Source of the DNA: Blastococcus sp. CT_GayMR16
GTDB taxonomy: Bacteria > Actinomycetota > Actinomycetes > Mycobacteriales > Geodermatophilaceae
DNA: 64,000 nt
Assembly (NCBI RefSeq): GCF_004570875.1
Contig: NZ_SPQK01000005.1
Coordinates: forward strand, 62,001 to 126,000
Direction: 5' to 3'
In this document: piece after piece, positions 18,464-63,731 of the stretch
How positions within the stretch are numbered: position 1 is the first letter of the stretch
How the letters are laid out: every line of letters begins with the position of its first letter
Notes under the pieces: model-generated
What the model saw: the letters and a program-made list of their open reading frames with translations, nothing else
Databases searched by the model: none
What the model was told of the DNA's origin: nothing
Position numbers and translations under genes: made by a program

Positions 18464-18479
18464 GTTACTGGGACGTAAC
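18464..18479. promoter_or_regulatory. GTTAC-N6-GTAAC inverted repeat upstream of etfBA
   Basis: The bases GTTACTGGGACGTAAC form exact 5-bp arms with a 6-bp spacer, 65 bp before the etfB start. One of four identical-arm sites in the window. The spacing equals that inside actinobacterial GlnR half-sites (GTnAC-n6-GnAAC), but the regulator is unknown. Confidence 0.5.
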
Positions 18480-18511
18480 GCGGTAGCGGACCGAGGGGCC
18501 GGTGACGCCGG

Positions 18512-19651
18512 TCACCCTGCGGCTGCCCACTCCCCCGTCGCTGCGAACCGCTGAACCGTCGCCGTGTGGGGCGCCAGGTCCAGTCCCTGGCCGGCCACCC
18601 AGGCGTCGGAGTAGTACGTGTGGGCGTACCGCTCGCCGCCGTCGCAGAGCAGGGTGACGACGCTGCCGGTGCGCCCGGCCGCCACCATCTCGGCGACGAG
18701 CTGGAAGGCCCCCCAGAGGTTGGTGCCCGTGGAGCCGCCGGCCCGCCGTCCGGTGGTGCGTTCCAGCTCGCGCATGGCGGCCAGCGACGCCGCGTCGGGC
18801 ACGCAGATCATGCGGTCGACGATCGTCGGGACGAACGACGGTTCGACCCGCGGCCGGCCGATGCCCTCGATGCGCGAGGACCGCCCGGTCGTCGTCCCGG
18901 GGTCGCCGTCCCGCCAGCCGGGGAAGAACGACGAACCCTCCGGGTCGACGACGGCCAGCCGGGTCGGGAGCCGCCGGTAGCGGAGGTACCTGCCGATGGT
19001 CGCGCTGGTGCCGCCCGTGCCGGCGCCGACGACGACCCACTCCGGTACCGGATGACGCTCCAGGGCGAGCTGGCTGAAGATCGACTCGGCGATGTTGTTG
19101 TTGCCCCGCCAGTCGGTGGCCCGCTCGGCATAGGTGAACTGGTCGAGGTAGTGGCCGCCGGCCTCGGTCGCGATCCGCCGCGCCTCGTCGTAGACGCTGC
19201 CGGCGTCGGCCACGAGATGGCAGCGCGCTCCGTAGAACTCGATCAGGGCGATCTTCTCCGGGCTGGTCGCCGCGGGCATGACCGCGACGAAGGGCAGTCC
19301 GAGCATGCGGGCGAAGTACGCCTCGCTGACCGCCGTCGACCCGCTCGAGGCCTCCACGACCGTGCTGCCCTCGGTGATCTGCCCCGAGCACAGGCCGTAC
19401 AGGAACAGCGACCGGGCGAGCCGGTGCTTGAGGCTGCCGGTCGGGTGGGTCGACTCGTCCTTGAGGTACAGCTCGACACCCCACTCCGGCGGGAGGGGAT
19501 AGAGCAGCAGGTGGGTGTCCGCGCTGCGCCGCGCGTCGGCCTCCACGGCCGCCACGGCGCGGTCGACCCACGCCCGGCAGGCGGGATCGGAACGGTCGAC
19601 GTCGCCGGGCGACGGGTTCGGTGCGGCAGTCACCCCCGCATGATCACGCAC
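18512..19651 (-). CDS. PLP-dependent cysteine synthase-family enzyme (Cds1-like L-cysteine desulfhydrase)
   Basis: A 379-aa fold-type II PLP enzyme. The cofactor Lys75 lies in HPTGSLKHRLARSLF, the substrate loop is EASSGSTAVSEA, and the phosphate-binding loop is GAGTGGTSATIGRY. The long form with the C-terminal GGERYAHTYYSDAW segment resembles mycobacterial Cds1 (Rv3684), which breaks cysteine into sulfide, pyruvate and ammonia. A cysteine synthase activity cannot be excluded. Start is uncertain: GTG at 19651 lies 5 bp after the upstream RGCVC stop, and a second GTG at 19633 (V-TAAPNPSPGD) would also work. Confidence 0.82.
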   Translation of the reverse strand: MRDHAGVTAAPNPSPGDVDRSDPACRAWVDRAVAAVEADARRSADTHLLLYPLPPEWGVELYLKDESTHPTGSLKHRLARSLFLYGLCSGQITEGSTVVEASSGSTAVSEAYFARMLGLPFVAVMPAATSPEKIALIEFYGARCHLVADAGSVYDEARRIATEAGGHYLDQFTYAERATDWRGNNNIAESIFSQLALERHPVPEWVVVGAGTGGTSATIGRYLRYRRLPTRLAVVDPEGSSFFPGWRDGDPGTTTGRSSRIEGIGRPRVEPSFVPTIVDRMICVPDAASLAAMRELERTTGRRAGGSTGTNLWGAFQLVAEMVAAGRTGSVVTLLCDGGERYAHTYYSDAWVAGQGLDLAPHTATVQRFAATGEWAAAG

Positions 19652-19658
19652 CCGGGCG

Positions 19659-19844
19659 TCACTTCGCGGGGCAGACGCACCCGCGGGTCGTGGCTGCCTG
19701 CGCCTCGGTGGCGCGGCAGTAGCGGAGCGAGATGGCGTCGTGGGCGACGAGCGGGTGCGGGCAGACCGCGCACCCGCCGTCGGAGACGGGGCCGTCGGTC
19801 TGGACGACGGGAACGGTCGTGGGAGCGGTCGGGGCTGACGTCAT
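19659..19844 (-). CDS. Small cysteine-rich RGCVC-type protein
   Basis: A 61-aa protein with CAVC and a terminal RGCVC, plus a single Cys in RYCRAT and a His, an arrangement that could bind zinc or another metal. I recall a family of short actinobacterial proteins ending in RGCVC; its function is not known. ATG at 19844. The stop lies 7 bp before the GTG of the Cds1-like gene, so the two are probably co-transcribed, which makes a sulfur- or thiol-related role worth considering. Confidence 0.75.
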   Translation of the reverse strand: MTSAPTAPTTVPVVQTDGPVSDGGCAVCPHPLVAHDAISLRYCRATEAQAATTRGCVCPAK

Positions 19845-61861: not shown

Positions 61862-61864
61862 CTG

Positions 61865-63646
61865 TCAGCGGCTGGCGTAGTCCCGGAAACCGCGGCCGGT
61901 CTTCCGGCCCAGGTAACCGGCGGTGACCAGGTGCTCCAGCAGCGGGGCCGGCGCGAAGCCCGGCTCGCGGAACTCCGTGTAGAGCTCCCGCTCGATGGCG
62001 AGGGAGACGTCGAGTCCGACGACGTCCAGCAGCTCGAACGGGCCCATCGGGTAGCCGCAGCCGACCTTCATCGCCGCGTCGATGTCGTCGGCGGTCGCGT
62101 AGTGCGCCTCGAGCATCTTCACCGCGTCGTTCAGATAGGGGAACAGCAGTGCGTTGACGATGAAGCCCGCACGGTCGGTGCAGGAGACCGCGTGCTTGCC
62201 CAGCTTCTCGCTGACCGCGTGCGCGGTGGCGGCGACGTCGGGCGCGGTGGAGATGGTGGACACCACCTCGACCAGCTTCATGACCTGTGCCGGGTTGAAG
62301 AAGTGCATCCCGACGACGTCCTGGGGGCGGCCGCTGGCCTTGGCGCACTCGATGACCGGGAGGCTGGAGGTGGTCGTGGCCAGCACCGCGCCGGGCTTGG
62401 CGATCTCACCGAGGTTGGCGAACAGCGCCTCCTTGACCGGCAGCGACTCGACGACGGCCTCGATGATCAGGTCGCGGTCGGCCAGCTCGTCGAGCGACGT
62501 CGTCCCGGTGACCCGCGCCAGGATCTCCTCGCGGCCGGCCTCGTCCAGCCGGCCGCGCGCGACCTGCTTGTCCAGCGACTTCGTCAGGGCCTTGCGGACC
62601 GCGTCGACCTTCTCCGTGGCCCGCGCGACGTAGCGCACGTCGTAGCCGCCCTTGGCGACGACCTCGATGATCCCGGTGGCCATCGTGCCCGAGCCGATGA
62701 CGCCGACCGTCTGCACCGGACGCGCGCCCTCGGCGGCGCCACCGGCCGCCGGGGTGGCGGCGTCGTCCACGACCTCGGCGGAGCCCGGCTCGGCGTAGCT
62801 GTAGAAGCCGCGGCCGTTCTTCCGGCCGAGCAGCCCCGCGGTGACCATCTGCTTGATGATCGGGCTCGGCGCGTGCAGCCGGTTGCGCGACTGCTTGTAC
62901 ATCGTGTCGAGGATCTCGTAGGCGGTGTCGATGCCGATGAGGTCCATCAGGGCGAGCGGGCCCATCGGCAGGCCACAGCCGAGCCGCATGGCGGCGTCGA
63001 TGTCCTCACGGCTGGCGTAGCGGTTCTCGTACATCGAGACGGCGTGGTTGAGGTAGCCGAACAGCAGGGCGTTGGCGATGAAGCCGGCCTTGTCGCCGAT
63101 CGTGACGTCGACCTTGTCCAGGCGGGCGGCCAGTGCCTCGATGTCGTCGACGACCGACTGCTCGGTGACGACGCTGCGCACGACCTCGACCAGCTTCATG
63201 ACCGGCGCCGGGTTGAAGAAGTGCATGCCGATGACCTTGTTCGGCCGCCCGGTCGCGACGGAGAGCTCGGTCACCGAGAGGCTCGAGGTGTTGGTCGCCA
63301 GGATGGTGTCGGGCGGACAGATCTTGTCCAGCTGCGCGAAGATCTCGGTCTTCAGCTCCATGCGCTCGGGCACGGCCTCGATGACGAGCTCGGCCGAGGC
63401 GAGGTCCTCCATCGAGCTGCTGAACCGGATCCGCTCGAAGATCGCGTCGCGGTCGGCCGGGTCGAGCTTGCCGCGGCTCACGGCGCGCTCGGTGGACTGC
63501 TCGACGTGCGCGCGGCCACGGGCCACCGCCTCGTCGTTGATCTCCACGGCGGTGACCGACAGGCCCGCCCGCGCGAGCACCTCGGCGATGCCGGCACCCA
63601 TGGTGCCCAGCCCCACGACGCCGACCTCGTTCAGTTCTCTGGCCAC
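61865..63646 (-). CDS. Double-length 3-hydroxyacyl-CoA (3-hydroxybutyryl-CoA) dehydrogenase
   Basis: A 593-aa protein made of two complete 3-hydroxyacyl-CoA dehydrogenases in tandem: residues about 1-285 and 310-593, joined by an Ala/Gly-rich linker. Each copy has its own nucleotide loop (GLGTMGAGIA and GSGTMATGII), the catalytic MHFFNPA with HisGlu-type dyad, and the C-terminal LGRKNGRGFYSY / LGRKTGRGFRDY end. Both copies look active. It would convert acetoacetyl-CoA and 3-hydroxybutyryl-CoA, linking the thiolase to the crotonyl-CoA used by Ccr. GTG at 63646 has AGGAG upstream, and a GTTAC-N6-GTAAC site lies 70 bp before it. Confidence 0.92.
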   Translation of the reverse strand: MARELNEVGVVGLGTMGAGIAEVLARAGLSVTAVEINDEAVARGRAHVEQSTERAVSRGKLDPADRDAIFERIRFSSSMEDLASAELVIEAVPERMELKTEIFAQLDKICPPDTILATNTSSLSVTELSVATGRPNKVIGMHFFNPAPVMKLVEVVRSVVTEQSVVDDIEALAARLDKVDVTIGDKAGFIANALLFGYLNHAVSMYENRYASREDIDAAMRLGCGLPMGPLALMDLIGIDTAYEILDTMYKQSRNRLHAPSPIIKQMVTAGLLGRKNGRGFYSYAEPGSAEVVDDAATPAAGGAAEGARPVQTVGVIGSGTMATGIIEVVAKGGYDVRYVARATEKVDAVRKALTKSLDKQVARGRLDEAGREEILARVTGTTSLDELADRDLIIEAVVESLPVKEALFANLGEIAKPGAVLATTTSSLPVIECAKASGRPQDVVGMHFFNPAQVMKLVEVVSTISTAPDVAATAHAVSEKLGKHAVSCTDRAGFIVNALLFPYLNDAVKMLEAHYATADDIDAAMKVGCGYPMGPFELLDVVGLDVSLAIERELYTEFREPGFAPAPLLEHLVTAGYLGRKTGRGFRDYASR

Positions 63647-63715
63647 GCTGCCACTCCTCCAGGTCAGGGATCGCAGGGAAGTCTCTCACCTCGGCGCGCC
63701 CGCGGCCCGTCTGGG

Positions 63716-63731
63716 GTTACCGGCCGGTAAC
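63716..63731. promoter_or_regulatory. GTTAC-N6-GTAAC palindrome upstream of the double dehydrogenase
   Basis: GTTACCGGCCGGTAAC is a perfect palindrome, extendable to 18 bp (GGTTACC...GGTAACC), 70 bp before the dehydrogenase GTG and 5 bp after the stop of the preceding gene. It is the most symmetric of the four sites with these arms. Confidence 0.55.

Follow-up and report, generated by a model that had tools for sequence, protein, structure and literature searches.

A palindrome shared by acyl-CoA degradation promoters of Blastococcus and mycobacteria as a probable operator of a FasR-type TetR regulator

The TetR-family regulator FasR of Mycobacterium tuberculosis, described for fas-acpS, activates FAS-I when bound upstream of fas; its reported binding sites at the fas promoter are three inverted repeats, acyl-CoA of C16 and longer is reported to take it off the DNA, and its crystal structure was obtained with a 25-bp fas promoter oligonucleotide (PMC7382501). 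The name FasR is also used in Streptomyces, for another protein that is orthologous to MabR (PMC5541348). On the degradative side, acyl-CoA dehydrogenase activity is reported to require EtfBA (electron transfer flavoprotein) and EtfD (PMC8593149). Here we describe a palindrome, GTTAC-N6-GTAAC (GTTACNNNNNNGTAAC), that precedes four loci in a 64,000-nucleotide stretch of Blastococcus sp. CT_GayMR16 (the window; C43:62001-126000 of a 4.52-Mb genome, labelled G000), and we propose that, with the consensus GTTACYSRYSRGTAAC, it is probably the operator of a FasR-type TetR regulator that switches acyl-CoA degradation genes.

The original prediction, made from the letters of the window alone, had four exact inverted repeats standing in front of etfBA, a secreted acylase, ccr and a double 3-hydroxyacyl-CoA dehydrogenase gene (hbd). 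All four are present and intergenic relative to the called genes (Table 1), and profile matches bear out the identities of the genes downstream. There were no matches across 100 dinucleotide shuffles of the window, and base composition leads one to expect 0.008 copies in it (the prediction had estimated about 0.01) and 0.53 in the whole genome. The sites had been placed 55-75 bp before a start codon, which holds for etfB (64 bp), ccr (74 bp) and hbd (69 bp); for the acylase the gap is 8 bp to the longest open reading frame, and falls in that range (about 56 bp) only with a start that we judge likelier from its signal-peptide-like beginning, MRRLAIV. A scan of the whole genome, which the prediction had named as a check, gave five exact palindromes against none for the reversed motif that served as a second control, a distribution that is not random. 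The fifth copy (C45:56813) is upstream of a minus-strand thiolase gene and a hydratase/3-hydroxyacyl-CoA dehydrogenase fusion, that is, fadA-fadB. Copies with one mismatch number 20 in this genome (five for the reversed control), and five of the 20 precede acyl-CoA-type genes, listed singly in Table 1; four of these five are GCTAC/GTAGC variants and none is GTTTC/GAAAC. The mutase gene behind the C43:132070 site is, we presume, MeaA-like. Among the remaining one-mismatch sites one is at glnA (GTTAC-N6-GAAAC), one is at a desaturase gene, and the others are at genes with no evident link.

The spacer is itself partly specified. From 85 distinct exact sites we obtained the consensus GTTAC-Y-S-R-Y-S-R-GTAAC, and in 75 of the 85 the spacer opens with Y (position 6) and closes with R (position 11): the spacer bases are read too, symmetrically, and such a palindromic interior fits reading by a dimer. 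The ccr and hbd sites of the window have the Y..R interior; those of etfB and the acylase are off-consensus. With its symmetric interior the motif has the general build of a dimer-read TetR operator, TXC-N6-GXA, the TXC motif having been described for DarR (PMC10636190).

The site is conserved where the acyl-CoA genes are. We compared 30 relatives, of which G001-G015 belong to the genus (several of these genomes being incomplete), and together with G000 exact sites occur in 29 of the 31 genomes; the reversed control gave none in all 19 family members. In 19 relatives (G001-G018 and G020; loci L037-L096), 53 of 60 exact sites have a target ortholog downstream, as found by tblastn within 900 bp and with no distance limit inside that; the seven to which no ortholog was assigned are L038, L046, L053, L078, L079, L088 and L096, and the 53 include a desaturase site in G016 that we place in another operator class. 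The targets are fadA (16), etfB (13), ccr (12), the acylase (3), etfD (2) and hbd (2), with one site each at the mutase, the C-C lyase, two acyl-CoA dehydrogenases and the desaturase. Counted by genomes of the genus (n=15), fadA has the site in 13, etfB and ccr in 11 each, the acylase and etfD in two each, and hbd in none. Conservation at orthologous promoters, the other check named at the outset, is thus seen at etfB and ccr, to which fadA can be added; of the four original targets the acylase and hbd are the least conserved. Beyond the family but within the order, the site recurs at ccr, hbd, acyl-CoA dehydrogenase, EtfD, etfB and thiolase genes, and sites also occur there at unrelated genes.

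The wiring at etfB extends to the mycobacteria. In a scan based on an EtfB alignment, the best 80 of 544 loci made up a named set (74 titled mycobacteria and six bins with other or wider names), and the site is found in all 80, 70-97 bp upstream of etfB, and is exact in 76. By motif score every one of these loci reaches at least 16 (the lowest is 19.0), while the same loci supplied 1712 control segments, each 250 bp long, of which seven reach 10 and not one reaches 13. In eight named mycobacterial genomes GTTACYN4RGTAAC occurs three to six times each (35 in total; reversed control, none), and 32 of the 35 sites were assigned to downstream genes: etfB (7), a CCG/Fer4 EtfD-like protein (12, as six pairs 25 bp apart), a 611-residue acyl-CoA dehydrogenase that we take to be fadE5 (7), a fatty acid desaturase, presumably desA3 (3), a beta-propeller protein (2) and an alpha/beta hydrolase (1).

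What points to FasR is that the same motif, in degenerate form, is found where FasR is reported to bind. The two 12-mers of the crystal oligonucleotide score 13.3 and 10.7 with a matrix built from the 85 exact sites, and eight of 5000 shuffles reach 13.3. Allowing up to three mismatches, the oligonucleotide is found upstream of FAS-I in 16 of 20 mycobacterial genomes, with no match in the other four; the FAS-I start downstream was identified by Pfam for L405, and the same VTI.EHDR start is seen in all 16. Each of these 16 fas promoters carries three copies of the motif, every copy departing from it at one to three bases. Relative to the oligonucleotide they stand at -87 (resembling GCTACTCGACCGTAAC), -2 (resembling GTTACCCGTGCGTAGA) and +11 (resembling AGAACTCGCCAGTAAC), the outer two ending 245-364 and 147-266 bp upstream of the start codon; these would be the three published repeats. 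The fasR promoters of the window's own family, which were not among the sites used to build the matrix, carry AGAACCCGCCGGTAAC (exactly so in two genomes) or variants of it, and AGAACCCGCCGGTAAC is the third fas repeat, AGAACTCGCCAGTAAC, save for two symmetric transitions. A score of 9.4 or more is reached by 17 of 19 fasR promoters in the family, which are not independent of each other, and a score of 10 or more by four of 11 outside it; of the 131 control promoters, 124 are free of such sites, and none of these scores above 9.6. The regulon had been called unrecognised, a word that fits its acyl-CoA target genes but not the operator, which has its match in the FasR operator at fas.

The candidate regulator is encoded outside the window, at C19:29836-30480 in G000. 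Its best PDB match is M. tuberculosis FasR, 6o6p (phmmer 5e-58), with 48% identity to that protein (Rv3208) over 201 aligned residues; the core of the recognition helix, GVSKPVLYQHF, is identical in the two, and of six named tunnel or signal residues L98, F138 and L185 are kept and L106M, F123Y and V163I are conservative changes. The protein of a relative, G025, meets the NCBIfam FasR cutoff with 379.5 bits. Orthologs (E 6e-58 or better) are present in 30 of the 31 genomes, G000 included, and G028, the sole genome without one, has one motif against two for the control. In the class as a whole, FasR-type proteins were found in 364 of 393 genomes at E 1e-30 (11 of them with values no better than 1e-31 to 1e-37), and as the protein is near-universal its co-occurrence with the motif is a weak test. 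As to the spacer, among the sites listed for each family, to which some genomes contribute only their first places, 18 of 20 have Y..R interiors in a FasR-bearing family (f17), and three of 20 in a family that lacks FasR (f45; 20 sites in 22 genomes, control 3).

Promoter geometry gives some indication of what a protein bound here would do. Among 69 oriented sites (divergent promoters and sites near locus ends having been dropped, and with a p-value that ignores relatedness), 47 have a T two bases beyond the gene-side arm, against 24 on the mirror side. This T is present at 13 of 13 ccr sites (mirror 0), 12 of 12 etfB sites (mirror 1) and four of five fadA sites (mirror 1); at mycobacterial-type EtfD sites it is seen in seven of 11, with nine on the mirror side. 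Sites with this T have an arm reading TAACNT, which resembles a -10 hexamer, and because the arm would double as promoter element a bound dimer would cover the promoter, which suggests repression. We therefore picture FasR, when long-chain acyl-CoA is lacking, as a dimer occupying the site and blocking transcription; at ccr, etfB and fadA the gene-side arm would supply the -10 element. When acyl-CoA of C16 and longer fills the tunnel, the protein would come off; fadAB and the acyl-CoA dehydrogenases of beta-oxidation, EtfBA and EtfD as its electron outlet, and, to take up the resulting acetyl-CoA, the ethylmalonyl-CoA route (ccr, hbd, mutase and C-C lyase) would then come on together. The same signal would turn fas down, so that synthesis and degradation would answer to a single sensor with opposite sign.

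Several observations weigh against this reading. The best NCBIfam match of the G000 protein is FasR, at 246.7 bits against a cutoff of 330, and it is for missing this equivalog cutoff that we call the protein FasR-like rather than FasR. At fas the best site of each promoter scores 9.8-15.0, less than the etfB sites do, and a related protein with a stricter taste could own the etfB sites. The off-consensus interiors of the etfB and acylase sites in the window also count against it. No good site was found in seven of 11 fasR promoters outside the family or in two of 19 inside it, and of the two arms of the family fasR site one, GAAC, is poor; the good arm may have been kept as a -10 element alone. 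In family f29, whose searched genomes have FasR, only three of 17 listed sites have a Y..R interior, which, as in the FasR-less f45, looks like background; with such interiors prevailing in some FasR-bearing families (f17) and not in others, the regulon is narrower than the protein, and FasR without this regulon is common. The promoter geometry is not settled either, as T at +2 is seen at none of four acylase sites and one of three hbd sites, and among the 80 mycobacterial etfB loci 72 have a TANNNT 26 bp ahead of the site and 59 have one in its arm; were the upstream hexamer the -10, the site would fall immediately downstream of the transcription start, a position equally in keeping with repression. 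For etfD, other controls are reported, namely iron through IdeR and hydrogen peroxide (PMC8593149). Finally, both binding at these promoters and its sign are things that we infer.

The main rival is a FasR paralog, some other TetR protein whose operator also has the TAC-N6-GTA build: it would control the beta-oxidation, electron transfer flavoprotein and ethylmalonyl-CoA sites, and FasR itself would keep just fas and possibly its own promoter. We consider this unlikely, with some real arguments in its favour: two to three FasR-like proteins are present at E 1e-30 in many genomes, the etfB sites are the stronger ones, and TAC-N6-GTA is common to other TetR operators, such as ATACT-N4-AGTAT of DarR (PMC10636190). 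Yet the near-identity of the family fasR site to the mycobacterial fas repeat speaks for FasR itself, and the two paralogs examined pair with other sequences. One is divergent from fadA2, where six related intergenic regions show, by eye, GTACC repeats in the family and no GTTAC palindrome except in G019. The other adjoins a desaturase gene, and most desaturase promoters show CTACG-N4-CGTAG together with GTTACG...CGTAGC, whose interior is G..C; the exact G016 desaturase site falls in this other class.

Of the regulators offered at the outset the TetR type is thus the best supported, and the OmpR-type regulator MtrA and GlnR have fared less well; that either of them reads the site we regard as highly improbable. 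GTTAC-N6-GTAAC is one base from a GlnR a/b box, and glnA of G000 has such a box, but there it is a separate GTTAC-N6-GAAAC, a form absent from the variants at acyl-CoA genes, which are mainly GCTAC/GTAGC; the targets are acyl-CoA and not nitrogen genes, and the inner bases are palindromic, which also mismatches the direct repeats of MtrA. Somewhat less improbable, and still very doubtful, is a local regulator encoded near its targets. A MarR gene (48883-49479) lies within the ccr cluster and adjoins a CoA mutase gene in most loci read, but in 15 loci no site with up to one mismatch precedes either the MarR or the mutase gene; a PadR gene stands beside etfD, but PadR has no match in G000, G002, G007, G009, G011 and G014, six genomes of the genus that all keep the sites. 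MadR was set aside on its differing reported consensus (PMC8872791). Chance clustering of a palindrome, which the small number of sites in one genome might invite, can be put aside almost entirely, being refuted by conservation across genera as well as by the shuffles and reversed controls. The geometries of CRP, LysR and NarL sites were also considered.

Table 1. Sites and genes of the proposed regulon in G000; positions are those of the window unless a contig is named
Feature	Position	Strand	Conservation or match
Operator before etfBA, GTTACTGGGACGTAAC	18464..18479		exact in 11/15 genus relatives at etfB
Putative -10-like TAACCT from gene-side arm of etfB operator	18462..18467	-	T at +2 in 12/12 etfB promoters examined
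etfB, electron transfer flavoprotein beta	17620..18399	-	PF01012
etfA, electron transfer flavoprotein alpha	16622..17584	-	PF00766, PF01012
Operator before penicillin-acylase-fold protein, GTTACGCGCGGGTAAC	46498..46513		exact at ortholog in G006, G009, G017
Penicillin-amidase-fold acylase, likelier start	43694..46441 (longest open reading frame to 46489)	-	PF01804
Operator before ccr, GTTACCCACCGGTAAC	56343..56358		exact in 11/15 genus relatives; also G017, G019, G020, G022
Putative -10-like TAACAT from gene-side arm of ccr operator	56355..56360	+	T at +2 in 13/13
ccr, crotonyl-CoA carboxylase/reductase	56433..57764	+	TIGR01751, 610 bits (cutoff 379)
Operator before hbd, GTTACCGGCCGGTAAC, perfect 16-bp palindrome	63716..63731		also G016, G018, G019; none assigned in G001-G015
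hbd, double 3-hydroxyacyl-CoA (3-hydroxybutyryl-CoA) dehydrogenase	61865..63646	-	PF02737 + PF00725, two stretches each
One-mismatch site before methylmalonyl-CoA-mutase-family gene	C43:132070
One-mismatch site before HpcH/HpaI C-C lyase	C34
One-mismatch site before CCG/Fer4 membrane protein resembling EtfD	C8
One-mismatch site before acyl-CoA dehydrogenase	C1
One-mismatch site before short-chain dehydrogenase	C15

Some neighbouring genes deserve mention in their own right. In the window (47171-49479) the MarR-family gene is directly upstream of a methylmalonyl-CoA-mutase-family gene, and in several order-level relatives its ortholog is beside the same mutase or one of about 1080 residues (IcmF-size); it looks like a conserved, mutase-specific regulator without the GTTAC site. 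In G005 and G006 (L052, L058) a PadR gene neighbours an etfD-like gene, and the operator lies close to the two or in the gap that separates them. The TetR gene divergent from fadA2 faces a fadA2-fabG4-like operon in G000 (C4:103000-119000), and the palindrome in the corresponding intergenic region of G019 is exact. In G000 and G016 the desaturase gene is, by coordinates, followed by a TetR gene, with a second TetR operator class (L139, L386, L390, L396, L399-L401). The glnA promoter of G000 (C42:92933-92948) carries GTTACCGCTCCGAAAC, a GlnR-type box that contrasts with the acyl-CoA operator. Three genus members have a site between S8-peptidase-like and aldo/keto-reductase-like genes (C47:79565 in G000, with one mismatch there).

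The case for FasR is built from sequence: the motif, its conservation at acyl-CoA promoters, the match to the fas repeats, the recognition helix, the acyl-tunnel residues and the family fasR site. In the open literature searched (titles and the beginnings of abstracts, with subscription papers and supplements outside its scope) we did not find FasR control of etfBA, etfD, fadE5 or beta-oxidation; titles and abstract beginnings on the fadAB regulon and desA3 did not describe this regulon, and those of part of the matches on ccr revealed no recognised regulator of ccr or the ethylmalonyl-CoA pathway in actinobacteria. We see about an even chance that a broader view is right, in which FadR has its actinobacterial counterpart in FasR-type proteins, long-chain acyl-CoA sensors that when bound to DNA activate FAS-I and repress beta-oxidation, EtfBA/EtfD, a desaturase and, where present, the ethylmalonyl-CoA pathway, with the wiring at etfB kept across mycobacteria and the window's family. 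If EtfBA and EtfD are under the same operator as fas, the balance between fatty acid synthesis and degradation would be set by a single acyl-CoA sensor, and ccr and the ethylmalonyl-CoA pathway in actinobacteria would also gain a regulator.

If the model holds, the likeness to FadR of Escherichia coli lies in one long-chain acyl-CoA sensor activating synthesis and repressing degradation; that protein is of the GntR family, and neither it nor its operator is related to FasR, so that no membership is claimed. FadR (YsiA) of Bacillus is a TetR protein that likewise represses fatty acid degradation genes and is released by long-chain acyl-CoA, but it belongs to another TetR subfamily (the G000 protein scores 40.7 bits against NCBIfam FadR, cutoff 200) and has another operator. 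GlnR boxes share the GTnAC-N6 spacing and differ in the GAAAC b-site, which the G000 glnA site has, and in their nitrogen targets. In another phylum, the proteobacterial regulator CcrR controls ccr and related genes of the ethylmalonyl-CoA pathway. RamB of Paracoccus is reported to do likewise (PMC10370305). MadR, the mycobacterial desaturase regulator, is also reported to be an acyl-CoA-responsive lipid regulator, with a consensus, TCTGTG-N7-GT, unlike this motif (PMC8872791). Closest is the mycobacterial FasR (Rv3208)/fas-acpS system, which shares the TetR ortholog, the core of the recognition helix, the TAC-N6-GTA build of the operator and, at fas, its three copies; there the known target is FAS-I synthesis, which is activated, whereas here the targets are beta-oxidation, electron transfer flavoprotein and ethylmalonyl-CoA genes, with a site on or near the -10 that suggests repression.

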